Assembly (NCBI GenBank): GCA_964023275.1
Contig: OZ029915.1
Span: 33,335,989 to 33,399,988 of the forward strand
DNA: 64,000 bases
Direction: 5' to 3'
Origin: Norana najaformis
Taxonomy: Eukaryota; Annelida; Clitellata; Crassiclitellata; Hormogastridae
Part shown: positions 16,676 through 63,765 of the stretch, in pieces
How the letters are laid out: the number at the start of each line of letters is the position of its first letter
Position numbering within the stretch: position 1 is the first letter of the stretch
The notes under the pieces: generated by a model
Told to the model about the DNA's origin: nothing
The model's database searches: none
The model's input: the letters and a program-made list of their open reading frames with translations, nothing else
Program-made: the position numbers and the translations under genes

Positions 16676-16945
16676 TTACCAAGGAGTGCTTGCTGATCCT
16701 GTATCGCTTTCGTCCTCGCTGTCTGCCAAGGCTGTCTTCTTCTGGCATCTAGGATGTCCACCCTTCCGCTGACAAGACATGCAGATCTTATGAAGCACGC
16801 GGTAGGCCAGCTTCTCCTCTTCACTGATAGGACTGACCCCGCTGGAGCCGCACAAGTAGCAAACCAGAGGATTCCTCAACTTTGGGTGAAAGTAGTGCCA
16901 ATTTACGATGCTCTCACAGTTGATCTGGCTTTCAAGGATCAACGT
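16676..16945 (-). CDS. Gene A unit 1, last exon: CYLCG...CMSC zinc-ribbon-like half
   Basis: Acceptor AATTGCAG, 90 codons including the stop. It encodes NCESIVNWHYFHPK...LVCYLCGSSG...KICMSCQRKGGHPRCQKK with an acidic C-terminus ending ASTPW. Two CxxC pairs about 30 residues apart suggest a metal-binding ribbon. The nucleotide sequence is identical to unit 2. Confidence 0.7.
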   Translation of the reverse strand, partial: TLILESQINCESIVNWHYFHPKLRNPLVCYLCGSSGVSPISEEEKLAYRVLHKICMSCQRKGGHPRCQKKTALADSEDESDTGSASTPW

Positions 16946-16974
16946 CTGCAATTATGTATGTATGTATGCATGTA

Positions 16975-17100
16975 TTATGTTATTATTAATTTTATTATTA
17001 TTATCATTATTATTATTATTTATTATTAATTTTATTATTATTATTATTATTATTATCATCATCATCATCATCATCATTATCATCATCGACATCATCAACA
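16975..17100. repeat. (TTA)n/(ATC)n microsatellite in gene A intron
   Basis: Runs of TTA then ATC. Unit 2 has a shorter version and lacks about 180 bp that follow here. Confidence 0.9.
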
Positions 17101-17269
17101 ACATTGGTCGACGTTAATTACAGCGTAGTTTGTACGACGAAATAAAACACAGAAAAGAACGGCTAGTTTTATGCTTTCAAAAAATACGCAACATCTAGGC
17201 TAATATCGTAGCTGTCTAGTTGTGTGTTATGTATACATGTGCGCATGTATGCATGTAATAATAATAAGC

Positions 17270-17768: not shown

Positions 17769-17886
17769 CTTAGCCAAGGGAGTGTCACGTGGTAACTTTC
17801 CGCCGCAGATGTATGATGCAGAGGCTTTCAGTTTGCTTAATGCCATTTTCTCTTCGTCGGTTAGAAAATATTCGCGATAGATGCAT
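17769..17886 (-). CDS. Gene A unit 1, exon 6: CIYREYFLTDEEK...YICGGKL
   Basis: Acceptor TTTTAACCAG and donor AAG|GTAATA. It encodes (R)CIYREYFLTDEEKMALSKLK...ASYICGGKLPRD. This is the middle part of the Cys-rich domain, matching gene B CVYSGKKLTKDDQ...YHCGANLF. Confidence 0.7.
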
Positions 17887-18580: not shown

Positions 18581-18701
18581 CTCGGTTTATTGCATTTGCA
18601 GCAATTGATGTAATCTCTGACATGTTCTCTTCTTTGTCCTTCAACGAGCCTTGGCTTTTTTGGAGTCGGAAGATCGAGTTGCTTCGATAAATTCACACGA
18701 G
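18581..18701 (-). pseudogene. Gene A unit 1, exon 5: frameshifted linker plus CCKCNKPR
   Basis: Donor AG|GTATGA after CNKPR. A run of six A on the minus strand, against five in unit 2, shifts the frame between SSDSKK and the CCKC motif, giving a stop after SDSKKAKAR. The acceptor choice (GCAG|CTCGTG) rests on phase. Confidence 0.55.
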
Positions 18702-19169: not shown

Positions 19170-19348
19170 GCTATATTTTCCAATCGTTTAGTTACTGAAT
19201 CCTTCGTATCTTCGGAAGGAGATTGAGTAGTCACAGACGGTCTCAGTTCGAGCTGTTTGATTGAAGCGTTGGCTTTAGTTACGTCAAACTTATAGGACAG
19301 AGACTCAACTGTTGGCACTGGCATTCCATTGAGATCGATAATCAATTC
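19170..19348 (-). CDS. Gene A unit 1, exon 4: ELIIDLNGMPVP domain
   Basis: Acceptor TTTTTAG. Encodes ELIIDLNGMPVPTVESLSYKF...SIKQLELRPSV..., followed by Ser/Thr/Glu-rich sequence. The start aligns with gene B ELIVDHNPVEIP. Possibly the start of a beta-rich domain. Donor GC|GTCAGG is weak but sits in the phase needed. About ten of 59 codons differ in amino acid from unit 2. Confidence 0.5.
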
Positions 19349-20271: not shown

Positions 20272-20443
20272 CTCTTCTGCTCTAGCAATTCTAGTCTCTA
20301 AATTCGCCAGAACTTCATTTAGCAGTTTCTCCTGTTTCTCATAAAACTCATTCAGCTGTTGGATTGCGGACGTCTTCGATTTATTTATGGACTTCTTCAG
20401 CGACTCGCATTTCTCCGAAACATCGCTTATGGCGATGTCTTTC
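20272..20443 (-). CDS. Gene A unit 1, exon 3: coiled coil
   Basis: 172 nt, acceptor TTATACAG. Encodes KDIAISDVSEKCESLKKSIN...LNEFYEKQEKLLNEVLANLE...ARAEE, a heptad-rich amphipathic helix like the coiled coil of RBCC/TRIM proteins. Donor GAG|GTCCGT is weak. Confidence 0.65.
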
Positions 20444-21070
20444 CTGTATAAAGCAGTTCCAGTGGAATAACTGGTAATGCACTAGAAACTTTTGCCATAC
20501 AAGAACTTAACGTTACAATCAGATAACATTTAATAATCGATTCTGCATGTTTCAACTAAGAAGGAGAAAAAGTCAGGGTACTTAATAACTGTAGAAAAGA
20601 ACGAATTTTTAATGATCTAAATAAGATGGCATACTTAAGCTATTACATCAGATGAATTGGACCAGGACAACATAAGCTTGTCTGGCTGCAAAGCTTTTTC
20701 AGAGTGTCATGCAATAATATCAAATTCATAAGGCTGCTGCTGATATTTATTGTTTTCAGGACGTCATGTTAGGGCCTTACATTGTCTGAAAACTTTGTTT
20801 CAAAACATGCCCACCTACAGTATCACGTTCATCAAGAAATGCTGGACAACAGGAAAGGAAAGTTTAAGGTTGGCAAAGAGGGAAGGGTAAGGCAATGGAT
20901 AGGCCTGAAAAGGATAAAGGAAAGGAGAAAGGAAGAAAAATGGAAAAGAAGATGTACAGTAATGTAATGTACATCTTTGAACATACCGCTACCTAAAATG
21001 CTATTTAATTTTTTTCCTACAAACATCGGGGGCAAATATTCGAAGCGTTTGTTATGTTGGATAGACTTAC

Positions 21071-21136
21071 TGCTGCATCAGTTCCGATTTCTTTCTGTTC
21101 ACTTCATTCTTTTGGTCACTGAGGTCTTTAACATGT
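21071..21136 (-). CDS. Gene A unit 1, exon 2: coiled coil (66 nt)
   Basis: Acceptor ATTTCAG, donor CA|GTAAGT. Encodes HVKDLSDQKNEVNRKKSELM(Q). Same length and phase as the gene B exon HIKSLKQELNKLDDKKKELD. Confidence 0.65.
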
Positions 21137-21795
21137 CTGAAATTTCACATATTCTGCTAAAAGTTTAACCGGACCAAGAACAGTGAAAAATCTAGTTAAA
21201 CATTAATGTGATGCAATGTGATGTAAGTTGATGAGTCATGGATGTGTTAAAACATATACTCTTGTAATAAAATCAGTTAAAAATTCTGTGTTCTCACTAG
21301 ACTCGCATTTGGATATATCTCTGAATCGGGTAGAGTTTGAGTTCCAAAATCTAGACTGTGAAACTCTTTTCCGGCACACGTTTACTCAATAGAGTAAACA
21401 AACTCGTGTCTTCCTGGATTTATTTCCTCCGTTGGCTGTTTCCATGAATTTTCGGAATACCCTTTTGATTTGAAAAACTCACCCTGGATTTTGACAGGAA
21501 CACCTATTTCGCGCAGCAGTGACCATCGATTGATGTCTTGTATATTATTATAGTGGCGCTACGGACGTTCTCAGATTATATTATATTAGACAGCATATTA
21601 TAGGAGTTTTTATAATAGGTCTATCACGTCACTATATGTACTGTAAAAGACAGTTTCTTAAAAAAATTAATTAGAACTGGAAACAGAAACAACACAGCAA
21701 AGCTTCGGTTGTATGTTGACTGATATTTCAACGAATGTTTTATGTTGAAACCTTATTTATGAAAACACTGGTAGGCAGGAATGTTGAAAACTTAC

Positions 21796-21833
21796 TGCTG
21801 CAACAACTGAAGTGTATTTGATTTCTTTGAAGC
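21796..21833 (-). CDS. Gene A unit 1, first recognised exon (38 nt)
   Basis: Acceptor TTATTTCAG, donor CA|GTAAGT. Encodes ASKKSNTLQLLQ(Q). It corresponds to the 44-nt gene B exon that also begins with Ala-Ser. The exon carrying the start codon was not found. Confidence 0.45.
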
Positions 21834-22291
21834 CTGAAATAACAAACCATAGATCTATTTAACATTTTGACAAGCAATACTTTTGTTTGCCGTTTGTCCT
21901 CGTTTGACTGTAAGACTTGAATACGCATATATCGGTATTTCATATGGTTGAAGAAGTGTTCACTGTTCGTATATTGAGGCCTAGATCTTACCGTTGTATA
22001 AGCTACATATTTTGTTTCAGTTGTTAGTTTTAAGCTGTGTATAGCACTTGCATGCAATGTTCAAAATATCGATTCAGATACAACAAATTTTATCACAGTT
22101 CATTTGAGGATAGATGAAATAAAATGAAGCAGTGAAGAAAATTACTATTCTGGAAGAGAAACAAAGTGAGAACTTTTAAAAAAGCAGGAAGAAGGAACAG
22201 AACTATTTCAATTACGAAGAAAATGAATATGTAAGAATAGGCATTCAGGGCTTTTAGATACGACTTTGTCGGTCTTCAATAAACAGAATTA

Positions 22292-22481
22292 ATGTCCGTC
22301 GGTGTAAATATTGCTACACTTACCAGCATTCGAAAGTCTGCAGAAAGTTTTGGTAAAGAAAAAAATGGTTCGGATTCCAACAAAAGCTATATCAAACCTT
22401 CTAAAACTTATAGAACAGTGCACAGTTCCATACAGGAAGCGAACTGTCGTGAAATAAATTGCAATACCCAAACATTTTCAG
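22292..22481 (+). CDS. Candidate plus-strand first exon, unknown gene
   Basis: ATG-initiated open frame MSVGVNIATLTSIRKSAESF...NCREINCNTQTFS with a clean donor CAG|GTAAGC. It joins in phase to the open block at 28,467. Only two amino acids near its end differ in unit 2 (frame beyond the donor excluded: one). No homology recognised; an excellent minus-strand acceptor/donor pair overlaps it, so the strand is uncertain. Confidence 0.25.
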
Positions 22482-22547
22482 GTAAGCACTGCAAAATCGA
22501 AATTTCGGTCTCAGTTTTCTAAAATTTGGGTCAAATGCATATTAATT

Positions 22548-23325
22548 CTTGCGTGAAGAGTTGTAATTGAAGTTCAGCGGTCCATGTAGACGAGGTGTGT
22601 GAAACGCAGGCATTTTCGATATTAGTCAATGCAGCGAACCGTTACGTATACACGATGTGTTGGGCGGCAGGAAAAGAACACGGGCATTGAAAGCTGACTG
22701 GGCTATCAGCGTAGTGCTATCAGAGACCTAATAAGACAGAGTATGTTAAATGATAAAATCAACTTTAAGCAAGTTTATAACTAATCCATCAAAAGACAAC
22801 TAGAGCCATTTAATTTCTTCATACTTGCAATTCCCACTTAGGCTAGTCGTTCTCTGTGCGATTGCCTTATAGCATAAATAGGATCTATAAGAGGTCAGTT
22901 ATAGAATTTCTTGAATTTCTTTCCCACATCTCGTCTACATGGACCGCTGAACTTCAATTACTACTCTTTATAGTTTCCATCTCCTCCCGAAGAAAATATA
23001 AATGGCTCTATCTCTAGTTGCAACAAAACGACCTCTGTCTCATAGCGACTAGGTAGCATATGCCTTAGTTGTCTTAGGTGCTTAGTAACAGACCTTTCTT
23101 TTCTTAATCATATAATTATAATTAGTTATCGACATCTGTAAGGTGAGATAATCACTCACTTACAGTTCACTATCAGAAGCATAATCCTCGGAGTTTTCGG
23201 GGTCAGGTCATTGAGTCAAAGGATCTTTCTGCTGAAGCGCAAACTCAACAGCAATCCAAAACCTTGCGTGAAGAGTAGTAACTGAAGTTCAGCGGCCCAT
23301 TTAGACGAGGTGTGTGAAACGCAGG
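22548..23325. repeat. Motif of about 50-64 bp in three copies, two direct and one inverted
   Basis: The core AAGTTCAGCGGYCCATKTAGACGAG lies at 22,548-22,611 (plus), 22,924-22,970 (minus) and 23,263-23,325 (plus). The first two could form the ends of a fold-back element of about 420 bp. Present in unit 2 at 51,717-52,495. Confidence 0.8.
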
Positions 23326-23744
23326 CTTTGCTTGAGAGTTGCATAGCTCGATAATACTAAGTAAAATTCACATAGTATTAGTTCATAATACGCGAACACG
23401 ATAGGCCTACACAGTGCAATTTTTCAGATGTCAGCGTTGACGAACTGTTCCCTCCAATCTTTTTCGCCATGCGCGCACTGGCCAACATTTGGAACCTGCT
23501 GTCTGGCCTCTCTAAGACTACACACCAATTAGGCCTAAGTCTAAACTAATAGACTACATTATCGCGTTTTATAAAAGGAAAACAATTGAAGACAAGCTAA
23601 GTGTGAACGTAAGATTACGCTGCTTAGTTGCAGCATGTTTTAAGCGCGCGCTCGTGTAGGAAATTTTTATGAGTGATCGGCTTAGTGATTTGTTTGTCAA
23701 CGCGCGGAGTAGATTAAACTATCGGTTTGAATTCACCTAGTCCT

Positions 23745-24050
23745 TTCTCGTCCTTTTCATATAGGCGACAGAAGCAGCCACCGCCCTCACCGCGCCTCCC
23801 AGCCACAGTTCGGGGACCATTTTGAGTTGATTGCCAGTCCCACGAGGCTGGCTGTGGGTTATGCTCCCCGGCCTAGGTCCAGCCGCCGGGTTTGATACCC
23901 CAGCCGAGCCTGCCAACGAGACCGGGGCAAAACACACTACTCGCGTGGCTGGTAGGCTCACGGTGTGGCGCTGACCAAGCGACACAACGGTAGTCAACAA
24001 GAGGAATCGGGCCAGAAACGCTTTGCAGAGGTCTTCGACGAGCTTATAAG
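23745..24050 (-). repeat. GC-rich probable short interspersed repeat
   Basis: A GC-rich island in AT-rich DNA, with a box-B-like GGGTATCAAACCCGG on the minus strand and an AAACTAAATTAAACT tail on the plus strand. The open frame of 87 codons in it has repeat-like composition. Duplicated at 52,913. Confidence 0.4.
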
Positions 24051-24627
24051 AACTAAACTAAATTAAACTGAATGCGACTGTCTGTCTAGGAGGAGACTTT
24101 ACAACCTAGTCAGGCTGGCATGCACGTACCTTCGTAAGATGGAGCATGAAAACCGTGTTTTTGCTTTTTGAGCATTGTAGGCTACATATGCCAGCAGCTG
24201 TAGCAATGAGCAAATGTTGACTTTAAAATTACATGTACGCTCACAAAATTTGTGCGCTATAAAAATTGATTTTGCGCGCTATCATTACAAGTTGTAAGCG
24301 AGCAGCTCAGACAGAATATTGCTCTGATGATATGTTTAGATAGTTGCTCTGATGATATGCACTGATTGTATGTTTAGATATTTCATAATTTCATGAAGTT
24401 CTGCATGCATATATAGAGTTAGCCTAATATTTTCTTTGTAGCTTTTCAAAGGCGCAACAATGATCTCCAAATAAATATGAGTGGATATTTACTTCGAAGT
24501 GGACTATTGCAGAAGGCACAGCCCAAATATATTTGTAACGTTCAGGCCCACTTTCTGTATTTCTACCTACTGTCCATACCAAACTGAAACTGCACCAGAG
24601 TTTCCATAAGATGATTTATGTACGCAT

Positions 24628-24668
24628 ATAGCTATTTATTTACATAACGCACCTTTGGGAACCTTTCA
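24628..24668 (+). repeat. Dispersed hairpin-repeat end
   Basis: TTTATTTACATAACGCACCTTTGGGAACCTTTCAAATGCGTT; the unit 2 copy (53,797) is closer to a GCGCCTTTGG..CCTTTCAAA stem. Confidence 0.5.
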
Positions 24669-25287
24669 AATGCGTTGAATTGCATAGAAATTTTCCCTTA
24701 TTTTATGTCGGTTGATTTCGAAATTAGAAATTAATAGCTCCGGAAAATTGATTGGAATTTTAGCCAACATTTTCCAGACAAAAACTTTAGTTTAATATAC
24801 TGAAGCATAGAAACGCGCAAGACATGGAGCGTCAATATGACACAGTGGCACGCGCTGACGAACAGATGAGATACATATTGTGCAAGCACTAAACAGCTAA
24901 AAAGCTCGAATAGTAAAACAAAAGGAGAGAAAACCTAAGGTTCTTGTCCAATAACAGTCTAAGCTTAATGGGATTACGATTCTTAAACCATGCTCGCGGG
25001 TGGAAAGGCAAACAAACGCTGGCCTAACAGACAGGGTTGCGCTATAATAGAAGCACACTAGAAGTCTGTCAGTCTGAATCAACGGAGTAATAGGCATATA
25101 AAGCAGATTATTTGCCCTATAAACCACTTCAAACCCTAGTTCTGTTATTTTATATTGGTCGTTTGTCCGTCGCCATTTACTGAAACTGCTACTAGTGATC
25201 GAGATACTGAATTACAAAAACAGTCTAACCCTTCAACCAGATATTTAGTTGCACTGACAATTCTCGGGTGTTGTTTCGACCTATATG

Positions 25288-25578
25288 TCATAACAGGATA
25301 ACCATCTCAGAAGAGTAGGCGCTCTTCGACTGTTTTTCAGTGTTTGCCTTTTTAACAGGAGACTTCTTCTTCCTTATTCTCGGTTTTATTCCCTGAGCTT
25401 TGCAGCCCTGACATACGTCGTGGGTGATCACGTCTGCCTGCTTATCCTCACGCATCTGGTTGCTGTGGCAACTGATATCGGCGCCACAGTGATAACACAC
25501 AGCGGGAAACTTGCGGTCATGGCTGAAATACTGATAGCTGACGTCCTTCGAACAGTCTGCCTGCTCCACAGCCAGATT
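25288..25578 (-). CDS. Gene B unit 1, last exon: CYHCG...CQGC
   Basis: Acceptor TTTTGCAG. Encodes NLAVEQADCSKDVSYQYFSH...AVCYHCGADIS...HDVCQGCKAQGIKPRIRKKK and a Ser/Lys-rich end. The amino-acid sequence is identical in unit 2. It aligns with the last exon of gene A. Confidence 0.7.
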   Translation of the reverse strand, partial: NLAVEQADCSKDVSYQYFSHDRKFPAVCYHCGADISCHSNQMREDKQADVITHDVCQGCKAQGIKPRIRKKKSPVKKANTEKQSKSAYSSEMVILL

Positions 25579-26187: not shown

Positions 26188-29100
26188 TAATTACACAACC
26201 CTGGGTTTTCCTAATTGTATTTTTTCAATCCGCAGCTAAACTTACCTGTGCCACAGTAGGGAAGAGATTTGCTCCGCAGTGATATGGCAGGATCCATTTG
26301 AGACTGTTCCAACATTCTTGGTCATCCTTCGTCAGTTTCTTGCCGCTGTAGACACATCTAGCCAAACAAGAATCGTCATTGTCATTGTAGTCGTCGTCAT
26401 TATCATCATCATCATCATCATCATCATCCCCATCAGCCCCATCATAATCGTTCTTCTACTCTATTTCATCATCGTTGTCGTCAGTAGCACCACTTTAGCC
26501 ATCACTCTGATAATCATCACCATCGTCGTCATCATCATCATCACCTTTATCATCATCATCATCATCATCATGATTATCATTAAAGGCAAAGAACTAATAC
26601 TTCCGTTTTGATAACCATCTTCGTCAGTGACATCGTCAGTTTAGTTATCGCTATTAATAAAACGTTGCATCATGCGAAGCAAATTTTAATTGTCAGCCTT
26701 GGAGAGAAATTCTTGTGCAAAGAGGTGTTCAATCACCTTGGCTTACGACAGTTTCTGCACCGGATGAAATCCCGCAGAGTGTGGATGGTCATCTTGGGAG
26801 TAGAAGGAGATGGGTGTGAAGGGGTTTCAGTTGCTTCTGCTGCCTCTTTCTTCTTCCGTTTTGGAGTTGCTTTATTACTTTGGTGTGGAGAAGGAGAGGC
26901 TTCTGCTGCCTCTTTCTTCTTCCGTTTTGGAGTTGCTTTATTACTTTGGTGTGGAGAAGGAGAGGGAGCTACAAAGGAGCATCATCAAATCACAATATTC
27001 AAGTAAGCCTTACTAGGCCCACCTGCCTTGCTGCCTCTCTGTGCATCTGTGCTCTGTGTTTGGTTTTTCTCATATATACACATACATTGTGTTGTGAAGT
27101 TATTTTAACTAGTAAAAAATCTTGGTTTTATACTGGTAAATGTCCTGATGTTTTACCGGTAAACCGTTTTACAGTTTACCACGGTAAATTGTTGTCAGAA
27201 ATCCTTTAAAATGGCAAGAATGGTAAAAATGCTAAAAGGTTCAAGTTGCATTTCTGTTCACTTTTTTATCAGACTAAATATTTTTACTATCACCTGTTTT
27301 CATCTTCTTCATATAAACAACTCTGTCTAAAATTCACAATCTCATTATGTCGTCCCCAACAAGCAACGTATTCTGGACCTGATTCAAATGCTTTTCTTAA
27401 GGAGTGCTTTGATGTTTTGCACCCTGTCATTCAGTTAGTTCAGTTCAGTGTAATGTACTTATGTGATAGTTTAAGTCCAAATAACAGCGATTTGCTTAGG
27501 ATACGACAATTATTGAAATTTTGACAATGGATGAGCTATGCAGATAGACTGCAAGAATTTAATTTGTGGGGCAAACACTCTGATTCAATGTTGCTGTTCA
27601 TCTCAGTATATTACTATAACTTATAAATGGCTAAACATATAGGTGTGTGGGATATAACCAAGAGATTAAACGTAAAATATCCCATATTTCACAAGTGAGA
27701 CGTAGGGGAGGCGCTCATTTCTTTTTCTCAGGCCCTTGAGCTGACAATAAACGAATCCAAAGGTCCTGGACACGGGGCCAATGAATCGCAGGATTTGCCG
27801 TTACTTCCCAGCTTAGGCCGGTGCCAAATTATACTGCTTGGTGACAGAGACAGATTTCCGCCCTGGCGGGGATTGAACCCCCGACCTCTCGGTTGACAGT
27901 CCCACCCACTAAGCACTAGTCTATCGCTCACCCTCAACCAAGAGTTTACGTCACTTAAATCATTTTTACCAATTTTAACCATATTTAACCATGTATTATA
28001 AAGCGTGTGCATAGTCATTAAATAACAAGTAGCACAAAATACTGGAAAACATAAACAATAAGAGGATGATGCTGCATTTGCAGTTATGCAAATGTCACAT
28101 GCCTATAATGTGAAAGTTATATCAAAATTCAATTTTTTTCGCACACATATAAGCATTTCGCCAGACTCAGGTCCTGTGTCTTTGATACACATACAGAGTG
28201 TATTATGCAATTTTAATATGTTATCCGTATTCAACACTCCTGAAAACAACGTCAGAAACAAAGGCTTTTTGAAGATCTTTGCAACAATCTTTTATTCAGA
28301 TGGTATATGTACGACGGCATAAAGAGTTGCAAGATTTGTGTATTATTTACATAGCAAGGCCTGTCAAAATGAATGCAATCAATGACTTTCTAGCATGACT
28401 TTTAATTGAAATGTGTTAAGTGATCGTTTTCGTTGTGTATCTTACTTGAAAGTGACGTAACTGTAGCAGACACGTCAGAAGCTGACGATTTGGAAGGAAA
28501 AGAGAAAGCAAATCCACCGAAAACAACAGCTAAAATAAAATTGGTCAAACAATATGGTCAACAGGTCAGTTGTAGCTCACTGGTGCAAGTGGACATTTGT
28601 AAGGTTTGGTGTGGAATAAGGAAAGTAATTACCATTTGAATTCTTTATTTTATCATGAGCATAATTTACAATAACAGAGATTCTTACTAAAATAATGTCA
28701 TTCCAGCTATAGTGAACCATTCTCTTTTAATGCATTGTTTGTAACATTTTATGGTGCTCCTAAGAAAACCTTCTCGGAGGCGCTCCAGCATAAGAAACTC
28801 CTGATGAACAGAAACTGGCTTTCATACGTGTCGAAATACGAGTTGGGTAAAAACCTGAAAGGTCTGCTTAGAAAACAAGTGAAGGTAAGTCATCCACCCA
28901 AGTTTTAAAATGTTCACTAAAAACTGTGGGAGAGATGACTCAAATAACAAAGGAAACATGTTAACAAATGCATTGCTTACTTACTCACTTACTTACTTAA
29001 ACTAGGCAAAAACAGAAAAGGTAATCTGCAACTTCGGGGACTTGCGCCGATATCTCGCTGATTAAGCAGGTCATCATATTTTGCAACATCCTTACTAGCC

Positions 29101-32100
29101 TTCCCTTCAGACCTCTACATGCGTCAAGGTCCTCCTTTCTCAAAAACTTGCCGATGCCCCTGGTGGCGATAATAATGTCTTAGACAAGCCAGAATTGCAT
29201 CCACAGGCTTAGAAATGGCTCTATATTGCAAATACGAATCGACTAGCGTCATATAACGTGTTTGTAATACTCAACTGGGTAGAAATTTTCTAGATTACCT
29301 TATTTTACAACGCTAATAATTGGCATTGACGCATCTCAATTAGACATGTCATCCTTCACAGACTTATTTATAGAGTCCTTTTGTTGGTTTAAGTATATAC
29401 AAATATTTCCGATGCCAGTCTACACGGTGTTATGCAGTTAACATGCAGTGGGCTGTTTAAGTGGCTTGTGTACTCGTTACTATGAAATTATTTTTGGGTA
29501 CAGTAACTGAAATCTTTAGGCCAAAAGCGTGGAGAAGCATTTCCTTCTGGCACTATGTTTTCCAGTGAAGAACCAGTCGGGCTCCAGTCTGACCTGTGCC
29601 GACTCCCTTACATGTTAACCTGCTGACTCTTAGGTGTTAAAGTGTGTAATTTAAAATTATGATAACAGAAAACATTACGAAACTAACACAATTTCTTTTA
29701 TATCACTCAAAAATCAAATAAACTGAAGGACTATTGCATTAAGGTGGATTCAGAGCGTCTGAAATAAGAATTAATGTTAAGCACGGCGGAAACTTTGGCC
29801 AGTTTTGACTCGTACAGCACAGTGAGGAAGGACTTTAGGAATATTGCGAGGAAAGGATGAAAGTTTTTGAGGAAAGTTTGCGAATAGCGGCTGAGCGGCG
29901 AGGCGCCCCGTTTACTAAACCGTCGTGACTGTGCCCAAAGTAAAAAATAATAGTATCATCAGCTAAGATAATGCATTTTTTAAATTATCGAAGAAATAGC
30001 CATATCATTAGCCTAATAGACCTGTTAAAACAGAGATGGCTCAAAGACAGAACCTTGAGTCACATCACAAACTCTTGAAATAACATCCATTTTGCAATTG
30101 CATACAGGTTACGGTCAGACAGATGACAACTTTCTGTAAAGTCTAGCAGTCACTGTAAAAGTTTACCTTAAATCCATCGTTACGAATATATTGAATCAAG
30201 TGCAACTTACGTTCTGCTTTGATATCCTGCTTAGGGAATGTGAAAGAGGTACTCCTTCCACTTTCCGCTGGCAGTTTAATCAGAGCAATGGCACGCGATG
30301 CATTTTCGATGTTGATTGTGTAGTCGAAACTGACTTCCGGTATCTCAACTGGATTGTGATCCACGATCAACTCCTGTAGAAATGTTTGATAATTTTAAGC
30401 AGTTTACTCATTTGTTGTGGGATGCAATTTTATCATTGAGATGTCATGAATGAAGCTTTTTTCTTTTGTCTTCCGTCGCATGTGTAAGATTACGAGAACG
30501 AAACCTGTAACAATCTTGTTTGATTGGACCAAGTGTATCAAAGGCTACAGAGTAGTATTCGGACGGAATCGTGGCACATTTTGCAGCCTCTCTTAGGACT
30601 ACAATATTGGCATCAGCATCAGGGACCTCAACTACTATAGATCGTTATAAAAACTTCAATCCTTCGAACACTCCTATCTTTGTCGTTTATTTACAGTCTA
30701 ACCACTCCGTCCAACCCGCTTCTTTTCCACCCTAACACTTCCTCGCACTTTCGACATCTCATCCTTAAAATTTGAAGATCGCTCCCTACCCATAGCTGCT
30801 CCACCTCTCTCGAATAAACTATAATCATAATTAAGATAATCGCCTGATCCACCCTACAAATTCGTCAACACTTCATCCCTTGCAATCACTGAAAATACTC
30901 CTCTTACACATTTCCCATCCTGATTCCTCCTCTTCCCCTAATCTATCCTGTCGATTCAATTTTAAACACCATCCACTGTAGCAGTATGACTGTCTACCTG
31001 CCCGACCTATGGATCTTGACCTGGAACCGAATCTGGCCCTACCAGCATCTCGCTTTGTTTTGATTGAGCGGCCGTGAATAAATTGATTCCCGCGACTTAG
31101 CTTCTTTTGGGCGCTGAACAGTTTTCTCGAGTTTACGATTACGATTACAATCGTTACGAGTATGAGAAGATGTTAATGACCGTCAGATCCCAAATCAGGC
31201 AATTGTCGCTTCCAATCCTTATGATTGTTCAGAAAGTTATGACCTTGTTTTAGTAATGTTTCTCAAGTTTTTATTCTCGCCTGTAAACAACACTACATGA
31301 CTTTTTGCAAAATGTTCATTTAATTTTTATAATTATTTTGCAATTTTCTAGTCTCTAATCCACAAGATTATGGAGGTACTATACATTTTATACATGCACA
31401 CAAATTTATGCAGCGCGCAAAAGGGCCGCAAATGCGTCAAAAAACGGGGAATCCCCATTTACGAGTCTTTAACCTCTGCTTTTGTTTTCCTTTCGATCAC
31501 CTTCTGTCGGGCTTCTTCCAGCTTCCGTTTCTGCTCTTCATATAAGTCATCCAGTTGTTCGGAAGTCTGTGCATGAGATGCCTTAATTGCACTCACCAAA
31601 GAATCATACTTCCCGTAAATATCATCCTTTGCAATCACCCTCCTAAAATGTAAGTTTTATCTTAACTTTAATTTCGATGGCCTATTATATATCTTTCGTA
31701 TAAACACACACACATACACACATAACATTCACACAACACACACACGTCGAAAGAAAACTTGTTGAACAATCAAAACACTGGCTGAACCATTTATCATAAA
31801 TTTCAAAAAGCAAAAGTTGCTTTGTTACCTACCACAACAGACCAGTTATATCGGATGCTAATAAAACTAGGCTAAAAATTGTTTAAATAAAATGATTAGA
31901 TTCTTTCCTTTGAGTTAACGCGTATGGTCAGTATAAGTAACTGTTATCTTGTATGCATTTTAAATCAAGACCAGAGAGACCATTTTTATAAAATGTTGAA
32001 GGTTATTAAGACGATTCTTATAAAACGAAGAAGGTTATTTTCTTGTCAGCCTTAGCAAAGAAACTTACAGCTTATCAAGTTCCTTCTTTTTGTCATCTAG

Positions 32101-34602: not shown

Positions 34603-34787
34603 TTTGAGGCAATGTCAAAATTGTGTAATATAGGTCTAACATAAATCATAGTCAGACACCTTGAAGTCTTTACATATATATATAGCATTTAATAACCAGA
34701 AATTATACAGGCCGTTTTTTGTTGTAGCTCTAGTCTTAGATATAAGTGTGTCCTTTAAATTAATCAGTTTTACCACTGCCTGTCTCT

Positions 34788-34980
34788 AGTCGATGTGGAA
34801 TGTGCGATTTATGATGGATGCAAAATAAAAATGCATTCTGAACTGAATCAAGTGGAACAGCGCGGATGTGCAATAGAAAATGTTTTACATGGAATGAGAG
34901 ACCAATTCACAAGAGGGCAGTATCTGTGTGTAGGCCAACTTGAATCCAAGATAACAGCAGCGAAATATTTCAGCAACTAA
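34788..34980 (+). CDS. Open block divergent from gene B, unknown
   Basis: After a good acceptor CTGTCTCTAG an open frame of about 63 codons reads DVECAIYDGCKIKMHSELNQ...RGQYLCVGQLESKITAAKYF and stops. It looks more protein-like than its surroundings. No homology recognised; the unit 2 copy runs off the window. Confidence 0.2.
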
Positions 34981-36865: not shown

Positions 36866-36911
36866 AACACGTTACCTAGTATACAAACGTGTGTTTGTAA
36901 ATGTTCCGAAG
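36866..36911. other. 46-bp copied segment at the duplication junction
   Basis: AACACGTTACCTAGTATAC... through TTCCGAAG is a copy, with one mismatch, of 33,531-33,576 inside unit 1, and directly abuts the first base of unit 2. Confidence 0.9.
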
Positions 36912-41302: not shown

Positions 41303-41456
41303 TCATTTATATAGCGCATCTTCGAGAAAATCCCTCGGAGGTGCTCCCGATCTGACAAAGCAAGACCACGATCACATGGTCTTCAGTCGCTGGCAAAATT
41401 GGGACAGAAAAAGGACAAGAAGCATGATAGCTGCTCCAGAATGTAATGTGAAAATG
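41303..41456 (+). repeat. Dispersed hairpin repeat with body, unit 2
   Basis: Same element as 14,812-14,965. Confidence 0.65.
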
Positions 41457-44203: not shown

Positions 44204-44473
44204 TTACCAAGGAGTGCTTGCTGATCCTGTATCGCTTTCGTCCTCGCTGTCTGCCAAGGCTGTCTTCTTCTGGCATCTAGGATGTCCACCCTTCCGCTGA
44301 CAAGACATGCAGATCTTATGAAGCACGCGGTAGGCCAGCTTCTCCTCTTCACTGATAGGACTGACCCCGCTGGAGCCGCACAAGTAGCAAACCAGAGGAT
44401 TCCTCAACTTTGGGTGAAAGTAGTGCCAATTTACGATGCTCTCACAGTTGATCTGGCTTTCAAGGATCAACGT
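44204..44473 (-). CDS. Gene A unit 2, last exon
   Basis: Identical to the unit 1 exon. Two CxxC pairs (CYLC, CMSC), then GGHPRCQKK and an acidic end. Confidence 0.7.
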   Translation of the reverse strand, partial: TLILESQINCESIVNWHYFHPKLRNPLVCYLCGSSGVSPISEEEKLAYRVLHKICMSCQRKGGHPRCQKKTALADSEDESDTGSASTPW

Positions 44474-54452: not shown

Positions 54453-54743
54453 TCATAACAGGATAACCATCTCAGAAGAGTAGGCGCTCTTCGACTGTTT
54501 TTCAGTGTTTGCCTTTTTAACAGGAGACTTCTTCTTCCTTATTCTCGGTTTTATTCCCTGAGCTTTGCAGCCCTGACATACGTCGTGGGTGATCACGTCT
54601 GCCTGCTTATCCTCACGCATCTGGTTGCTGTGGCAACTGATATCGGCGCCACAGTGATAACACACAGCGGGAAACTTGCGGTCATGGCTGAAATACTGAT
54701 AGCTGACGTCTTTCGAACAGTCTGCCTGCTCCACAGCCAGATT
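54453..54743 (-). CDS. Gene B unit 2, last exon
   Basis: Protein identical to unit 1 exon 25,288-25,578. Confidence 0.7.
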   Translation of the reverse strand, partial: NLAVEQADCSKDVSYQYFSHDRKFPAVCYHCGADISCHSNQMREDKQADVITHDVCQGCKAQGIKPRIRKKKSPVKKANTEKQSKSAYSSEMVILL

Positions 54744-57700
54744 CTGCAAAAACAAAATGAAGTCGTCATGGAGACAGATGCAGCTTAGCGGAATTCAATG
54801 TTATTGAGTGAATTGTATCACAGTCTGATAAGACAGTGTCAGGTATTTATTAATGAACAGCTTAGGTCTTTAGAGCATATTTGGAAGCGATAGTCTAGTG
54901 GTCAGAGTTCTGGATTGTCAACCCAGATGTTTGGGGTTCAAATCTCCTAAAAGACGGACAGATATTTGAAGATTTTTAAATAGTACAGTACAGCTGACCC
55001 TAGCTGAGTCAGAGCATAGGCCTATAGTTCATACAGCATACGGAATAACTTAAATAGCTACCATAGTAAAATGAGCACTAAATAAATACATCGATTTACA
55101 CTGCCAATTGGAAGATCTTACTGCGAAGGAAGCCCTGGAGATCTGGAAGTCTTCCAATACCGAGGCTAAAGAATTAAGTCGCTAATGCTTCATACTCATG
55201 ACTGCCCCTCGAGGCTGGATTGGCGCATTTTGAGGACCATTCAAAAGCGCTGAAAGCAGTAGTAGTTGAATTAGTAGTGATTGAAATACGCGGAGTAGTA
55301 GTAGTAGTAGTATAATAATTACACAACCCTGGGTTTTCCTAATTGTAATTTTTCAATCCGCAGCTAAACTTACCTGTGCCACAGTAGGGAAGAGATTTGC
55401 TCCGCAGTGATATGGCAGGATCCCTTTGAGACTGTTCCAACATTCTTGGTCATCCTTCGTCAGTTTCTTGCCGCTGTAGACACATCTAGCCAAACAAGAA
55501 TCGTCTTTGTCATCGTCGTCATCGTCATCATTATCATCATCATCATCATCCCCATCAGCCCCATCATAATCGTTCTTCTACTCTATTTCATCATCGTTGT
55601 CGTCAGTAGCACCACTTTAGCCATCACTCTCATAATCATCACCATCGTTGTCATCATCATCATCACCTTTTTCATCATCATCATCATCATCATCATGATT
55701 ATCATTAAAGGCAAAGCACTAATACTTCCGTTTTGATAACCATCTTCGTCAGTGACATCGTCAGTTTAGTTATCGCTATTAATAAAACGTTGCATCAAGC
55801 GAAGCAAATTTTAATTGTCAGCCTTGGAGAGAAATTCTTGTGCAAAGAGGTGTTCAATCACCTTGGCTTACGACAGTTTCTGCACCGGATGAAATCCCGC
55901 AAAGTGTGGATGGTCATCTTGGGAGTAGAAGGAGATGGGTGTGAAGGGGTTTCAGTTGCTTCTGCTGCCTCTTTCTTCTTCCGTTTTGGAGTTGCTTTAT
56001 TACTGTGATGTGGAGAAGGAGAGGGAGCTACAAAGGAACATCATCAAATCACAATATTCAAGTAGGCCTTACTAGGCCCACCTGTCTTGCTGCCTCTCTG
56101 TGCATCTGTGCTCTGTGTTTGGTTTTCTCATATATACACGTACATTGTGTTGTCAAGTTATTTTAACCAGTACAAAATCTTGGTTTTATACTGGTAAATG
56201 TCCTGATGTTTTACCGGTAAACCGTTTTATAGTTTACCACGGTAAATTGTTGTCAGAAATCCTTTAAAATGGCAAGAATGGTAAAAATGCTAAAAGGTTC
56301 AAGTTGCATTTCTGTTTACTGTTTTATCAGACTAAATATTTTTTCTATCACCTGTTTTCATCTTCTCCATATAAACAACTCTGTCTAAAATTCACAATCA
56401 CATTATGTCGTCCCCAACAAGCAACGTATTCTGGACCTGATTCAAAAGCTTTTCTTAAGGAGTGCTTTGATGTTTTGCACCCTGTCATTCAGTTAGTTCA
56501 GTTCAGTGTAATGCACTTGTGTGATAGTTTAAGTCCAAATAACAGCTATTTGCTTAGGATACGACAATTATTGAAATTTTGACAATGGATGAACGATGCA
56601 GATAGGCTGCAAGAATTTAATTTGTGGGGCAAACTCTCTGATTCATTGTTGCTGTTCATCTCAGTATATTACTATAACTTATAAATGGCTAAACATATAG
56701 GTGTGTGGGATATAACCAAGAGATTAAACGTAAATATCCCATATTTCACAAGTGAGACGTAGGGGAGGCGCTCATTTCTTTTTCTCAGGCCCTTGAGCCG
56801 ACAATAAACGAATCCAAAGGTTCTGGACACGGGGCCAATGAATCGCAGGATTTGCCGTTACTTCCCAGCTTAGGCAGGTACCAAATTATACTGCTTGGTG
56901 CAGAGACAAATTTCCGCCCTGGCGGGGATTGAACCCCCGACCTCTCGGTTGACAGTTCCACCCACTAACCACTAGTCTATCGCTCACCCTCAACCAAGAG
57001 ATTACGTCACTTAAATAATTTTTACCAATTTTAACCATATTTAACCATGTATTATAAAGCGTGTGCATAGTCACTAAATAACCAGTAGCACAAAATACTG
57101 GAAAACTTAAACAATAAGAGGATGATGCTGCATTTGCAGTTATGCAAATGTCACATGCCTATAATGTGAAAGTTATATCAAAATTCAATTTTTTTCGCAC
57201 ACATATAAGCATTTCGCCAGACTCAGGTCCTGTGTCTTTGATATACATACAGAGTGTATTATGCAATTTTAATATGTTATCCGTATTCAACACTGCTGAA
57301 AACAACATCAAAAACAAAGGCTTTTTGAAGATCTTTTCAACAATCTTTTATTCAGATGGTATATGTACGACGGCATAAAGAGTTGTAAGATTTGTGCGTT
57401 ATTTACATAGCAAGGCCTGTCAAAATGCAACCAATGACTTTCTAGCATGACTTTTAATTGAAATGTGTTCAGTGATCGTTTTCGTTGTGTATCTTACTTG
57501 AAAGTGATGTAACTGTAGGAGAGACGCCAAAAGCTGACGATTTGGAAGGAAAAGAGAAAGCAAATCCACCGACAACAACAGCTAAAACAAAATTGGTCAA
57601 ACAATATGGTCAACCGGTCAATTGTAGCTCACTGGTGCAAGTGGATATTTGTAAGGTTTGGTGTGGAATAAGGAAAGTAATCGTCCGCTTGAATTCTTTA

Positions 57701-60700
57701 CTTTATCATGAGCATAATTTACAATAACAGAGATTCTTACATAAATAATGTCATTCCAGCTATATTGAACCATTCTCTTTTAATGCATTGTTTGTAACAT
57801 TTTATGGTGCTCCTAAGAAAACCTTCTCGGAGGCGCTCCAGCATAAGAAACTCCTGATGAACAGAAACTGGCTTTCATACGTGTCGAAATACGAGTTGGG
57901 TAAAAACCTGAAAGGTCTGCTTAGAAAACAAGTGAAGGTAAGTCATCCACCCAAGTTTTAAAATGTTCACTAAAAACTGTGGGAGAGATGACTCAAATAA
58001 CAAAGGAAACATGTTAACAAATGCATTGCTTACTTACTCACTTACTTACTTAAACTAGGCAAAAACAGAAAAGGTAATCTGCAACTTCGGGGACTTGCGC
58101 CGATATCTCGCTGATTAAGTAGGTCATCATATTTTGCAACATCCTTACTAGCCTTCCCTTCAGACCTCTAGATGCGTCAAGTCCTCCTTTCTCAAAAACT
58201 TGCCGATGCCCCTGGTGGCGATAATAATGTCTTAGACAAGCCAGAATTGCATCCACAGGCTTAGAAATGGCTCTATATTGCAAATACGAATCGACTAGCG
58301 TCATATAACGTGTTTGTAATACTCAACTGGGTAGAAATTTTCTAGATTACCTTATTTTACAACGCTAATAATTGGCATTGACGTATCTCAATTAGACATG
58401 CCATCCTTCACAGACTTATTTATACAGTCCTTTTGTTGGTTTAAGTATATACAAATATTTCCGATGCCAGTCTACACGGTGTTATGCAGTTAACATGCAG
58501 TGGGATGTTTAAGTGGCTTGTGTACTCGTTACTATGAAATTATTTTTGGGTACAGTAACTGAAATCTTTAGGCCAAAAGCGTGGAGAAGCAAGTCCTTCT
58601 GGCACTATGTTTTCCAGTGAAGAACCAGTCGGGCTCCAGTCTGACCTGTGCCGACTCCCTTACATGTTAACCTGCTGACTCTTAGGTGTTAAAGTGTGTA
58701 ATTTAAAATTATGATAACATAAAAGATTACGAAACTAACACAATTTCTTTTATATCACTCAAAAATAAACTCAAGGACTATTGGATTTAGGTGGATTCAG
58801 AGCATCTGAAATAAGAATTAATGTCAATCACGGCGGAAACTTTGGCCAGTTTTGACTCGTACAGCACAGTGAGGAAGGACTTTTGGAATATTGCGAGGAA
58901 AGGATGAAAGTTTTTGAGGAAAGTCTGTGAATAGCGGCTGAGCGGCGAGACGCCCCGTTTACTAAACCGTCGTGACTGTGCCCAAAGTAAAAAATAATAG
59001 TATCATCAGCTAAGAGAATGCATTTCTTAAATTCTCGAAGAAATAGCCATATCATTAGCCTAATAGACTTGTTAAAACAGAGATGGCTCAAAGATAGAAT
59101 CTTGAGTCACATCACAAACTCTTGAAATAACATCCATTTTGCAATTGCATACAGGTAACGGCCAGACAGATGACAACTAACTTTCTGTAAAGTCTAGCAG
59201 TCACTGTAAAAGTTTACCTTAAATCCATCGTTACGAAAATATTGAATCAAGTGCAACTTGCGTTCTGCTTTTATATCCTGCTTAGGGAATGTAAAAGAGG
59301 TACTTCTTCCACTTTCGGCTGGCAGTTTAATCAGAGCAATGGCACGCGATGCATTTTCGATGTTGATTGTGTAGTCGAAACTGACTTCCGGCATCTCAAC
59401 TGGTTTGTGATCCACGATCAACTCCTGTAGAAATGTTTGATAATTTTAAGCAGTTTACTCATTTGTTGTGCGATGGAATTTTATCATTGAATTGTCATGA
59501 ATGAAGCTTTTTTCTTTTGTCTTCCGTCGCTTGTGTAAGATTATGAGAACGAAACCTATAACAGTCTTGGTTGATTGGACCAAGTGTATCAAAGGCTACA
59601 GAGTAGTATTCGGACGGAATCGTGGCACATTTTGCAGCCTCTCTTAGGACTACAATATTGGCATCAGCATCAGCGACCTCAACTACTATAGATCGTTATA
59701 AAAACGTCAATCCTTCGAACACTCCTATCTTTGTCGTTTATTTACAGTATAACCACTCCGTCCAACCCGCTTCTTTTCCACCCTAACACTTCCTCGCAGT
59801 TTCGCCACCTCATCCTTAAAATTTGAAGATTGCTTCCTACCCATAGCTGCTCCAACCCTCTCGAATAAACTATAATCATAAGTAAGATAATCGCCTGATC
59901 CACCCTACAAATTCACCAACACTTCATCCCTTGCGATCACTGAAAATACTCCTCTTACACAGTTCCCATCCTGATTCCTCCTATTCCCCTAATCTATCTT
60001 GTCGATTCAATTTTAGACACCATCCATTGTAGCAGTCTGACTGTCTACCTACCCGACCTATGGATCTTGACCTGGAACCGAATCTGGCCCTACCAGCATC
60101 TCGCTTTGTTTTGATTGAGCGGCCGTGAATAAATTGATTCCCGCGACTTAGCTTCCTTTGGGCGCTGAACAGTTTTCTCGAGTTTACGATTACGATTACA
60201 ATCGTTACGAGTATGAGAAGGTGTTAATGACCGTCAGATCCCAAATCAAACAATTGTCGCTTCCAAAAGAACGTCCTTGTCCTTGTGATTGTTCAGAAAG
60301 TTATGACCTTGTTTTAGTAATGTTTCTCAAGTTTTTAGTTTCGCCTGTAAACAACACTACATGACTTTTTGAAAATTGTTCATTTAATTTTTATAATTAT
60401 TTTGCAATTTTCTAGTCTGTAATCCACAAGGTTATGGAGGAACTATACATTTTATACATGCACACAAATTTACGCAGCGCGCAAAAGGGCCGCAAATGCG
60501 TCAAAAACGGGGAATCCCCATTTACGGGTCTTTAACCGCAATATAGCGGATACTTCGCTCGTATAAAAGCCAATTTTTATTGTACCGTTTCTGCCTTTGT
60601 TTTCCTTTCGATCACCTTCTGTCGGGCTTCTTCCAGCTTCCGTTTCTGCTCTTCATATAAGTCATCCAGCTTTTCGGAAGTTTGTGCATGAGATGCCTTA

Positions 60701-63700
60701 ATTGCACTCACCAAAGAATCATACTTCCCGTAAATATCATCCTTTGCAATCACCCTCCTAAAATGTAAGTTTTATCTTAACTTTAATTTCGAAGGCGTGT
60801 TATATATCTTTCGTATAAACACACACACATACGCACATAACATTCACACAACACACATACGTCGAAAGAAAACTTGTTGAACAATCAAAACACTGGCTGA
60901 ATAGTTTATCGTAAATCTCGAAAGAGCAAAAGTTGCTTTGTTACCTACCATAACAAACCAGTTATATCGCTGCTAACAAAAATAGGCTAATAATTTGTTT
61001 AAATAAAACGCTTAGAATCTGTTTTAGGTTAACGCGTATGGTCAGTATCTGCTATACATTTTAAATCAAGACCAGAGAGACCATTTTTATAAAATGTTGA
61101 AGGTTATTAAGACGATTCTTATAACATGATGAAGGTTATTTTCTTGTCAGCCTTAGCAAAGAAACTTACAGCTTTTCAAGTTCCTTCTTTTTGTCATCTA
61201 GTTTGTTCAGTTCCAGCTCCAGAGATTTTATATGACTACAAGTAGACAGATGTTTTCATTACTTCTAGGAAACATTTCCTTGCTGAACACTCTACAAAGG
61301 TTTTCTCCTAAATTGCATCAACTCGAATATTGAACAACTACCTGTATCTCTTTCATCTACACCTTTATGATTCTCCAGTCCGGCTCATCGGTCCTGCAGT
61401 CTACGCCTTTCACTCACTTCGACTTCTGTTCACCCTCATTCCCCTCTCTTTTTAGCCTTCTCACACCTTTAGCCACACCTTCATTCCTTCCAGAACCTTC
61501 TCCTTCAAGCCACGTTCACGATGTTCACCAATATACGTAACTTGGAGACACCTGCTTTTGACATATCCCTATAATTTGTTTGTGACCGTCTATGTCCTAA
61601 GAACAACTAATTCGCTCTGAGAATCCCGTTCACTCCTTACAATTAATTTCAGACTATTTCAGTGGCACATCATGGTGTCCTATTCCTTTCTGCTTTATTA
61701 GTGTTGTTGGCTGATTCCAAAGGATTAGAACTAATCTCTCCAAGTCATCTGGTTGCATCAAAATCGATAATGATACAAGAACAAAGACAACCTGAGCAGT
61801 AATCGGCAGGCAATTCCTATCAGTTGCTTGCCTCAGACAGGACCGTCGAATGATATCTGGCGCATTGTTACTGTGGCACTACAGGAATTTCAGCATAGAT
61901 TATCACTCGTTAAGCCTATCGGTATCCTCTTAATTTTGTTTTGTATAATAAAGAGGAATGTCAGCGAAGAAAATAAGGAACATAATGCAAAGGATTTTGA
62001 ATATTCAACTCTTTGCAAAAAGCACTATTTAAATACAACCTATGCAAAAATTGTAAGATTTGTTAACGATTTTAAATTGAAACGGCAGAATTCTTGTGAT
62101 TTGCAGTAGACCTACTTACTCGTTAATTAGTTGAAATGCGCTGCGTTTTTCTACACCAGAAGTCTGACAACACATCAACACGTCATAGTTGATCGCAGAT
62201 TGAATGCAGACGATGTCAACAAGATCTATCAGAACTGAGCGTGTAATTTACAATTATATGCTATGTTGCACAGTCTGTTATAATTTTGGTACTATTAGAA
62301 ACGTTTCCTTGAATATGTAGCCTATCTATATCTGTCTTGTAAATGTAGATGCGGGCCTATATTACAATCATATATAAAAGTTTTATCATTTTGCCTCTGT
62401 TCCAAACTATCTTAGACTCGGATTCCTTTGTTACAGCTACCATTTACAAACTGTAAATGGCTTTAACTGAGACGTGGTTAAAGTCCGCTATACAGTGGAT
62501 ACTGTATTTGTTTCATATCGAAATAATCCGATTCATACCTAAATGCAGGCCTGTCGAAGAGAGCGATGGTTTAGCCATTCTAATTAAGAAAGACGTCTAG
62601 TATAAAACTCTGGACTTGGAACAAACTTCACTAAACACGTTACCTAGTATACGATCGTGTGTTTGTAAATGTTCCGAAGGACTGGAAAACCACATTCGGC
62701 ATAATTTACAGTCCAACATGATACTTTTTAATACTGAAATGAAGCACTTACTGCCTGTCAATTACGGGCAAAACGTTTTATAGCTTGGACTTTAATAATT
62801 AAAACTGAAGAAAATATTATCTTTACTCAGAACTCCTACAACAGTCTTTCTTCATACCATACTTAGAGCCTCGCGATTGCCTAATACTACTACTATATTA
62901 CCTTTATCGACAACATCTTTAATTAGCAATTTAAATTCCTCTGACTCGTCTGTCACCAGAAGTGATGTGGCTGACCACCTTGCCAATTAATTATTGCTAG
63001 GGCGATTTAAATCCGGTAGCTGAAACTAGTCAGACTGCGCTGACCAACTGCTTATTACAGTTGAGTCGACTGCACAATTTCACTAACTACTAGGTGCTAT
63101 GAACTGAAGTCGGAAAACCGAAACATTCATTAGCACAATTATACAGGGTTCACTGATTTACAATATAATAAGAAATTGTACATTATAACATTGTCTGTTT
63201 TTTCATTAACTACATTCGGGTATAAATGGCCAACCCAATAGCGAATGTTGAACTCTTGCAGAAAAATCGTACAAATTACTGGCCCTTATTTAAGATATTC
63301 GAAAGATCACTGTGACACAATCAATCCAATTTCCTTAGATACCGAAACACATTTACTAAAATCAAATCCAAAAAAAACTGACCATTTTCGTTCCAAGCAA
63401 CGGAACTACAGTACAATGTCTCTAAATTTTAGTACTAAGTCATATACAAGACTTTCTGATCGACTCTGAACTACTCATCGGCCTATATGTAACTTGACTT
63501 ATGATAAGTTTAGATGATAATATCGCGTCGGCAATCTCATTGCTTGCAGATCTCTTGACCTCTCGCAGTCCTCAATATTAGCCACACATTGTACGCACAA
63601 CAAACACTGAACACATGTTAAATGTTTGCACGGTAGGGCGTACAGGCTGTGCTTGTATCATTTCCGATTTTTGATTGGATATCAGACCCGTCATATTACC

Positions 63701-63765
63701 TGCATAGCCTTTATAGAGCATGCAGGCGCCAGTTTGGGCTTAGCACTTATGACCAAAGATCGCAT
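54453..63765 (-). CDS. Gene B, unit 2: coiled-coil + Cys-rich domain protein
   Basis: Exons 5' to 3' on the minus strand: proposed 63700-63765 (ATG), then 62120-62163, 61170-61235, 60586-60757, 59262-59424, 55862-56027, 55374-55485 and 54453-54743. Phases agree; 1,080 nt, 359 aa. It differs from unit 1 by a one-codon longer coil exon (KAET), a single copy of the SPSPH...AAEA linker repeat, DHKPVEMPE for DHNPVEIPE, and a GC donor (C|GCAAGT) after the ELIV exon. All Cys and His of the Cys-rich domain are kept. If the GC donor is used, this copy is intact. Confidence 0.6.
54883..54955 (+). repeat. tRNA-Asp(GTC)-like sequence, unit 2
   Basis: Box A TAGTCTAGTGG, TTGTCAA loop, box B GGGTTCAAATC. 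The anticodon stem CTGG/CCAG pairs better than in unit 1; the acceptor stem is still broken. Confidence 0.55.
55374..55485 (-). CDS. Gene B unit 2, exon 7
   Basis: RCVYSGKKLTKDD...YHCGANLF, as in unit 1. Confidence 0.7.
55510..55705. repeat. (ATC)n-rich simple repeat, unit 2
   Basis: Counterpart of 26,395-26,580. Confidence 0.9.
55862..56027 (-). CDS. Gene B unit 2, exon 6: single-copy linker plus CRNCRKPR
   Basis: 166 nt, against 232 in unit 1. PSPHHSNKATPKRKKKEAAE once, then TETPSHPSPSTPK... and DFIRCRNCRKPR. Confidence 0.7.
56028..57480. other. Gene B intron with SINE, unit 2
   Basis: Counterpart of 27,000-28,430. Confidence 0.5.
56770..57000 (-). repeat. tRNA-Asp-like SINE, unit 2
   Basis: Same boxes as 27,715-27,945. 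Confidence 0.7.
57519..57616 (+). CDS. Candidate plus-strand exon, unit 2
   Basis: (G)ETPKADDLEGKEKANPPTTT-AKTKLVKQYGQP; donor GTCAAT is weaker than in unit 1. Confidence 0.15.
57798..57937 (+). other. Hairpin-repeat copy with open plus-strand block, unit 2
   Basis: Identical to 28,745-28,884, including GTAAGT. Confidence 0.3.
57938..59261. other. Gene B intron, unit 2, nothing recognised
   Basis: Counterpart of 28,885-30,210. Confidence 0.5.
59262..59424 (-). CDS. Gene B unit 2, exon 5: ELIVDHKPVEMP, GC donor
   Basis: 163 nt, same frame as unit 1. The base after the exon changes the donor from GTAAGT to GCAAGT, the usual form of GC-AG introns. Confidence 0.6.
60586..60757 (-). CDS. Gene B unit 2, exon 4: coiled coil
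   Basis: 172 nt, ending KAET with donor ACG|GTACAA. The sequence just downstream (about 55 bp) is absent from unit 1. Confidence 0.6.
61170..61235 (-). CDS. Gene B unit 2, exon 3: coiled coil (66 nt)
   Basis: HIKSLELELNKLDDKKKELE-KL; conservative changes only. Confidence 0.65.
62120..62163 (-). CDS. Gene B unit 2, exon 2 (44 nt)
   Basis: TSGVEKRSAFQLIN(D): seven of 15 residues differ from unit 1, but length, phase and splice sites are kept. Confidence 0.45.
62164..63699. other. Gene B intron, unit 2
   Basis: About 55 bp extra (around 63,059-63,115, GTTGAGTCGACTGCACAATT...) compared with unit 1. No exon seen. Confidence 0.5.
63700..63765 (-). CDS. Gene B unit 2, proposed first coding exon
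   Basis: 22 codons starting MRSLVISAKPKLAPACSIKA, donor CAG|GTAATA. Confidence 0.35.

Follow-up and report, generated by a model that had tools for sequence, protein, structure and literature searches.

The stretch analysed here, a 64,000-nucleotide window of the annelid Norana najaformis (contig OZ029915.1 of assembly GCA_964023275.1; C3:33335989-33399988 in the genome that we searched, a chromosome-scale, animal-type set of 608,420,607 bases on 17 contigs), carries four predicted genes of one small family, here termed A1, B1, A2 and B2. The genes are housed in two tandem units of ~27 kb and ~29 kb. Self-comparison matches positions 10321-36869 (unit 1, genes B1 and A1) head to tail with 36908-65850 (unit 2, genes B2 and A2), with aligned segments 91.7-97.1% identical; unit 2 occupies 36908-64000 of the window and extends to 65850 in the flank beyond it. 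On the minus strand the gene order is B2-A2-B1-A1, one B gene followed by one A gene in each unit. The same comparison detected no further pieces of the unit longer than 150 bp in 20 kb of rightward and 10 kb of leftward flank. The predicted proteins would share one plan, with a helical coil in the N-terminal part, then a short ELI(I/V)D stretch and a basic linker, and a cysteine-rich domain at the C-terminus.

In B1, six exons join into one open frame of 343 codons, and all five introns are of the GT-AG type. In the direction of transcription (all exon coordinates are on the minus strand), the exon model comprises a 66-nt coil exon (HIKSLKQELNKLDDKKKELDK; 32069-32134), a 169-nt coil exon predicted by AlphaFold to be helical (31474-31642), a 163-nt ELIVD exon that the ELI pattern also picks out (30211-30373), a 232-nt exon encoding the linker with two PKRKKK motifs and the CxxCxKPR motif (26737-26968), a 112-nt CG exon (CVYSGKKLTKDD...YHCGANL; 26246-26357), and a 291-nt last exon, stop codon included, encoding CYHCG...CQGC (25288-25578). 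A1 follows with a 66-nt coil exon (HVKDLSDQKNEVNRKKSELMQ; 21071-21136) that shows 0 differences from its A2 copy, a 172-nt coil exon (20272-20443), a 153-nt ELIID exon located by the ELI pattern and provisional at its 3' end (19196-19348), a 121-nt linker and CxxCxKPR exon (18581-18701, with its acceptor at 18701 or, using AAG, at 18654), a 118-nt CG exon (CIYREYFLTDEEK...YICGGKL; 17769-17886), and a 270-nt last exon, again including the stop codon, encoding CYxCG...CxxC (16676-16945).

The second unit repeats this arrangement. In A2 the exon model holds the 66-nt exon (50239-50304), the coil exon (47659-47830), the ELIID exon, its 3' end likewise provisional (46556-46708), the linker and CxxCxKPR exon (45932-46051), the CG exon (45118-45235), and the last exon (44204-44473). 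For B2 the model holds a 66-nt exon (61170-61235), a coil exon whose end we place at an in-frame GT after ACG (60586-60757), the ELIVD exon (59262-59424), a linker and CxxCxKPR exon with a single basic motif (55862-56027), the CG exon (55374-55485), and the last exon (54453-54743). A preliminary description of this locus, made by a model from the letters alone, had listed a 66-nt exon, a 169/172-nt coil exon, an ELI(I/V)D exon, and a cysteine-rich domain divided over three exons. All are present, the coil exon with 172 nt in A and 169 nt in B1 and the cysteine-rich part in equal phases in A and B; a degenerate DNA pattern for the ELI(I/V)D exon yields 4 matches where 0.18 are expected, and 0 of 100 shuffles reach 4. 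The right end of the cluster had been drawn at 63765, near which nothing is demonstrably coding; the first supported B2 exon is the one at 61235-61170.

Exon number and intron phases, likewise said to be common to A and B, agree at the visible introns with the exception of the one between the ELI(I/V)D and linker exons. There, B exits its exon in phase 1, whereas A is without a good phase-1 GT donor. The A1 frame can be kept open by pairing the phase-1 GC donor at 19132 with an acceptor homologous to that of B or, alternatively, a phase-0 donor with the poor AAG acceptor at 18654. A2 is open only with weak pairs, employing an AAG acceptor at 46005 or a weak phase-2 donor, and its linker exon has one base fewer than that of A1 in a run of A. 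B2 carries two altered donors: a 52-nt insert at the donor of its coil exon, with another GT available in frame, and a GC donor instead of GT after the ELIVD exon. The splice-site scoring table used for these assignments was a generic one.

By the measure of their sequences, A and B are old paralogues. In single BLASTP comparisons, the cysteine-rich parts are 34% identical over 144 positions (E 2e-22) and the coil parts 33% identical over 123 positions (E 2e-16); this homology and the two tandem units bear out the proposed history, in which an old duplication gave rise to A and B and the pair was duplicated again recently. Between the units, A has accumulated 6 silent and 7 amino-acid changes (pN/pS 0.0105/0.0336), and B 11 silent and 8 amino-acid changes (pN/pS 0.0106/0.0553); positions 18656-18701 of the A linker exon, where the frames differ, 26903-26968 of the B1 linker exon, which hold a 66-bp repeat, and one gapped codon are excluded from the counts. 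Had these sequences changed at the rate of the local introns, A would be expected to show 36.7 amino-acid changes (binomial 1e-9) and B 25.7 (4e-5), far more than were counted. The cysteine-rich exons contain one amino-acid change each, against 13.7 (A) and 11.3 (B) expected; for the B part 45 of the 366 sites entered in the intron-rate test are an estimate, and its silent count of 2 was entered as 1, which leaves the amino-acid test unaffected. A1 and A2 do not differ in the protein encoded by their last exons, and neither do B1 and B2.

These counts bear on the alternative that part of the set, A2 most of all, is decaying into pseudogenes, with only B1, perhaps joined by B2, in working order. 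The base missing from the A2 linker, the lack of a clear phase solution for the ELIID-to-linker intron of A, the unconstrained ELIID exon of A, and the two altered donors of B2 all point in that direction; the single amino-acid change in the A cysteine-rich exons and the identical last-exon proteins in both pairs argue against it, and the substitute GT and the GC donor of B2 could still function. We regard decay as doubtful overall, although it is a live alternative for some copies and one compatible, as regards B1, with the function proposed below.

Turning to the protein, the B1 coil exon, aligned with its three relatives, is modelled by AlphaFold as a single helix over residues 5-55 with a mean predicted local distance difference test score (pLDDT) of 92.6. 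Charged residues make up 38-46% of the coils, which have no more than one proline or glycine. The best PDB match to the coil profile, a Cmr6 chain at E 0.04, was taken as chance. The B linker carries the PKRKKK motif, presumably a nuclear signal; an exact 66-bp in-frame tandem duplication at 26833-26965 doubles the motif in B1 and is absent from B2. A search of the genome with the B coil returned 6 matches at E<=1, all at this locus, and also missed the coil of A, which makes it a weak test for distant coils.

The coil had been called RBCC/TRIM-like in the preliminary description. The helical character stands; the TRIM likeness is insignificant, with the TRIM_CC profile (PF25600) matching the B coil at E 4.1 and 7.7 bits (cut-off 30) and the A coil not listed. 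What A and B proteins have in common with TRIM/RBCC proteins is a long, helical, charged segment; they differ in that their genes have no detected RING or B-box and in that they end in a cysteine-rich tail. Many TRIM proteins have SPRY or NHL domains C-terminally. In line with the earlier statement that RING and B-box are missing, Pfam gave no match to either in the three minus-strand frames of 21060-25290, 32060-36908, 36900-44200, 61171-64000, and 64001-74000, an upstream scan of A1, of B1 (to 44200) and of B2 (to 74000) that a domain split by an intron could escape. Applied to two B-box loci of this genome as positive controls, a scan of this kind detected both RING and B-box in each.

The genome itself holds a large expansion of B-box genes, many of them in frames of ~380-400 codons; 150 of 627 candidates were scored, the matches listed lie mainly on contigs C8 and C2, and the two loci scanned hold RING as well. 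The window contains none of the 150 scored matches; on this contig the closest is ~15.5 Mb off. A TRIM/RBCC protein that had shed RING and B-box, kept its coil, and acquired a new C-terminal domain, serving as a scaffold or decoy for TRIM oligomers, is in our judgement unlikely. In its favour are a helical exon comparable in kind and a weak TRIM_CC match for the B coil; a donor exists, given at least 150 B-box matches in the genome, and a diverged TRIM coil could escape a search in which the B coil missed even that of A. That match, however, is far under the cut-off, the regions upstream of A1, B1 and B2 are empty of B-box and RING while both controls were positive, and the scored B-box matches keep their distance from the window.

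The tails of A and B have in common the pattern C-x2-C-x4-C, CG, one more C, CYxCG, and H-x2-C-x2-C; the two share ten Cys/His positions over ~120 residues, nine cysteines and one histidine. Neither the cysteine-rich part nor joined B1 matched anything above cut-off in Pfam (newest models 2025) or NCBIfam, and PDB sequences gave only insignificant matches to the cysteine-rich part, in keeping with the earlier inability to name the domain. The zinc finger zf-BED (PF02892) resembles it weakly, over YF...CxxC in the B last exon (E 0.24 and 0.16), but the scores of 11.9 and 12.4 bits are below the cut-off of 20.6. The second ligand pair of a BED finger is His-based; in the B tail it is CxxC, and two further cysteine exons lie in front. 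A profile match to uS14 (type Z), best E 0.039, spans ~22 positions round C-x2-C-x-[KR]-P-R; given its insignificance and its short extent we rejected a relationship and read it as convergence of a zinc knuckle. Contigs of IMG/VR and GTDB returned 50 and 37 matches to the cysteine pattern, none confirmed as relatives. Queries of the literature with motif strings (of the KPR[CV]xYS kind) and with domain or family terms recovered no work on this family, as judged by titles and the beginnings of abstracts. Similar cysteine patterns presumably occur in unnamed invertebrate proteins, a point that no search here supports.

The coil with a zinc-type tail is a known kind of protein, and its tail is unnamed in the libraries searched. 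We advance tentatively, as a possibility that we would not favour, that the tail represents a metazoan zinc-binding domain not previously described, restricted here to a single tandem locus; joined to a dimerising coil, it would define a new kind of nuclear bridging protein.

How far the domain extends through the genome was queried at E<=10. The B cysteine-rich query gave 10 matches, 8 in the locus and 2 elsewhere (E 0.39 and 3.7); the A query gave 17, of which 8 lie in the locus and 9 outside it, the latter at E 1.8-8.5 (best 1.76). Because the B query found the last exons of A at E 9e-6, a relative at the distance of A should not escape it. At the sensitivity used, this is a one-locus family in this genome. 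The label "lineage-expanded" does not fit, as no match of the domain outside these four genes fell below E 0.39, and the suggested role in defence or in taming mobile elements found no evidence at this locus.

The same searches speak to a further alternative, a domesticated transposon protein in which a coil has been joined to the DNA-binding part of a mobile element, the latter being the cysteine-rich tail. Unnamed cysteine-rich domains do occur in domesticated transposon proteins, the sub-threshold zf-BED match would suit such an origin, and 7 of the 9 extra A-domain matches (E 1.8-3.7) sit in frames of 1,091-1,319 codons, perhaps genes of mobile elements. Four of the nine extra loci were re-examined: the alignments consist of a 71-residue match with stop codons or of pieces of 13-21 residues, at most two cysteines are matched at a time, and the B domain has no match there. 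This evidence also speaks against the cysteine-rich exons belonging to a transposon open reading frame. In addition, the domain is divided over three exons with conserved phases, no other genomic copy lies below E 0.39, and Pfam identified no transposase domain in joined B1 or in the parts of A. Transposon origin is, in our view, distinctly improbable.

Taken together, a model for these proteins emerges. Upon the homology of A and B, the exon layout of B1, the constraint between units, the predicted helix, and the one-locus distribution at the sensitivity used, we would place the following steps. The coil would most probably form dimers or oligomers, and the basic linker would direct the protein into the nucleus. 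The cysteine-rich tail would probably fold round two zinc ions, the first held by C-x2-C-x4-C together with CG and the second by a ribbon-like CYxCG...CxxC, and would bind nucleic acid or a chromatin partner. The four genes would then encode a coil-dimerised, zinc-tailed nuclear factor with a bridging or regulatory role. We consider this reading evenly balanced as a whole; our confidence is higher for the gene models and lower for the binding partner.

Several observations weigh against this model: i) none of the splice candidates for the ELIID-to-linker intron of A is compelling; ii) the A ELIID exon has 5 amino-acid changes and 1 silent change between units, so that constraint is not visible there; iii) the best windows of the heptad test were equalled by 24 of 500 shuffles for A (28 residues) and 15 of 500 for B (42 residues), and the other four windows by 68-178 of 500, a weak signal on account of which dimerisation is only proposed; iv) AlphaFold returns a mean pLDDT of 45.5 for the last exon alone, leaving zinc binding without support from a fold; and v) no first exon bearing a start codon was identified for these genes, either by a comparison of donor-ended frames or in a list of strong donors, so that the coil may be preceded by a signal peptide or by a further domain at the N-terminus. 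The comparison set all donor-ended frames, 29 of A, against 41 of B; its best raw score for a common first exon was 42 (next 28), in stretches with poor donors, and was not accepted. The list of strong donors offered one candidate only, a possible short exon with an ATG, unproven, which would lie 5' of A and have its end at 21483.

With the N-terminus not located, a secreted or cell-surface protein whose cysteines form disulphides could be imagined, signal peptide included. We think this very improbable: Pfam detected no known secreted domain above cut-off, and the CxxC pairs, CxxCG, and the basic linker have an intracellular look. A nuclear factor is the reading that we carry forward.

Other features of the window deserve mention. 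Between the units, the stretch 22000-25400 diverges by 0-2.5% in 15 of 17 bins of 200 nt and by 5% in the remaining two; in the comparison region 32100-36869, divergence per bin is 0.5-12.1%. The low divergence may reflect gene conversion or conserved non-coding DNA. Unit 1 contains a 322-codon open frame at 11213-12178 (minus strand) without a Pfam match at E<=1; its counterpart in unit 2, at 37840-38795 (minus strand), is broken into two frames. Left of the duplication are a gene with ankyrin and armadillo repeats at 197-1987 on the plus strand (Pfam Ank_2, 2.1e-12; Arm, 5.1e-16) and, at 4963-5384, an array in which a 20-bp unit is present in 21 copies with 99% matches.

Unit 2 alone bears the insertion of a 1.8 kb Tc1-like transposon (48352-50143, minus strand). 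Its stem-loop at 48713-48667, the stem of which starts 21 nt past the transposase stop codon, is of the histone 3' untranslated region type (Rfam RF00032, scoring 35.0 bits where the cut-off is 34). With a 401-base probe over the transposon end, 40 of 164 candidates were scored, the copy in the window included; all 40 are ~100% identical over the probe and are spread across many contigs. The stem-loop is intact in all 12 copies fetched, again counting that of the window, though with copies so young its retention is no proof of selection. Its presence suggests that the transposase mRNA may be S-phase-linked and poly(A)-less. We found no paper that links the histone stem-loop with a transposase or Tc1, or with a transposable element and SLBP. 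A recently active DNA transposon with an mRNA that is perhaps processed like replication-dependent histone mRNA may merit more attention than the four-gene cluster.

For the gene family itself, the duplicated pair is instructive. With the units otherwise alike, the locus displays which parts of the pair are held fixed, the cysteine-rich tail, and which drift, the ELIID exon of A and the splice donors. A domain unnamed by Pfam and NCBIfam, present in four genes at one place, is a clean target for the definition of a new domain family.

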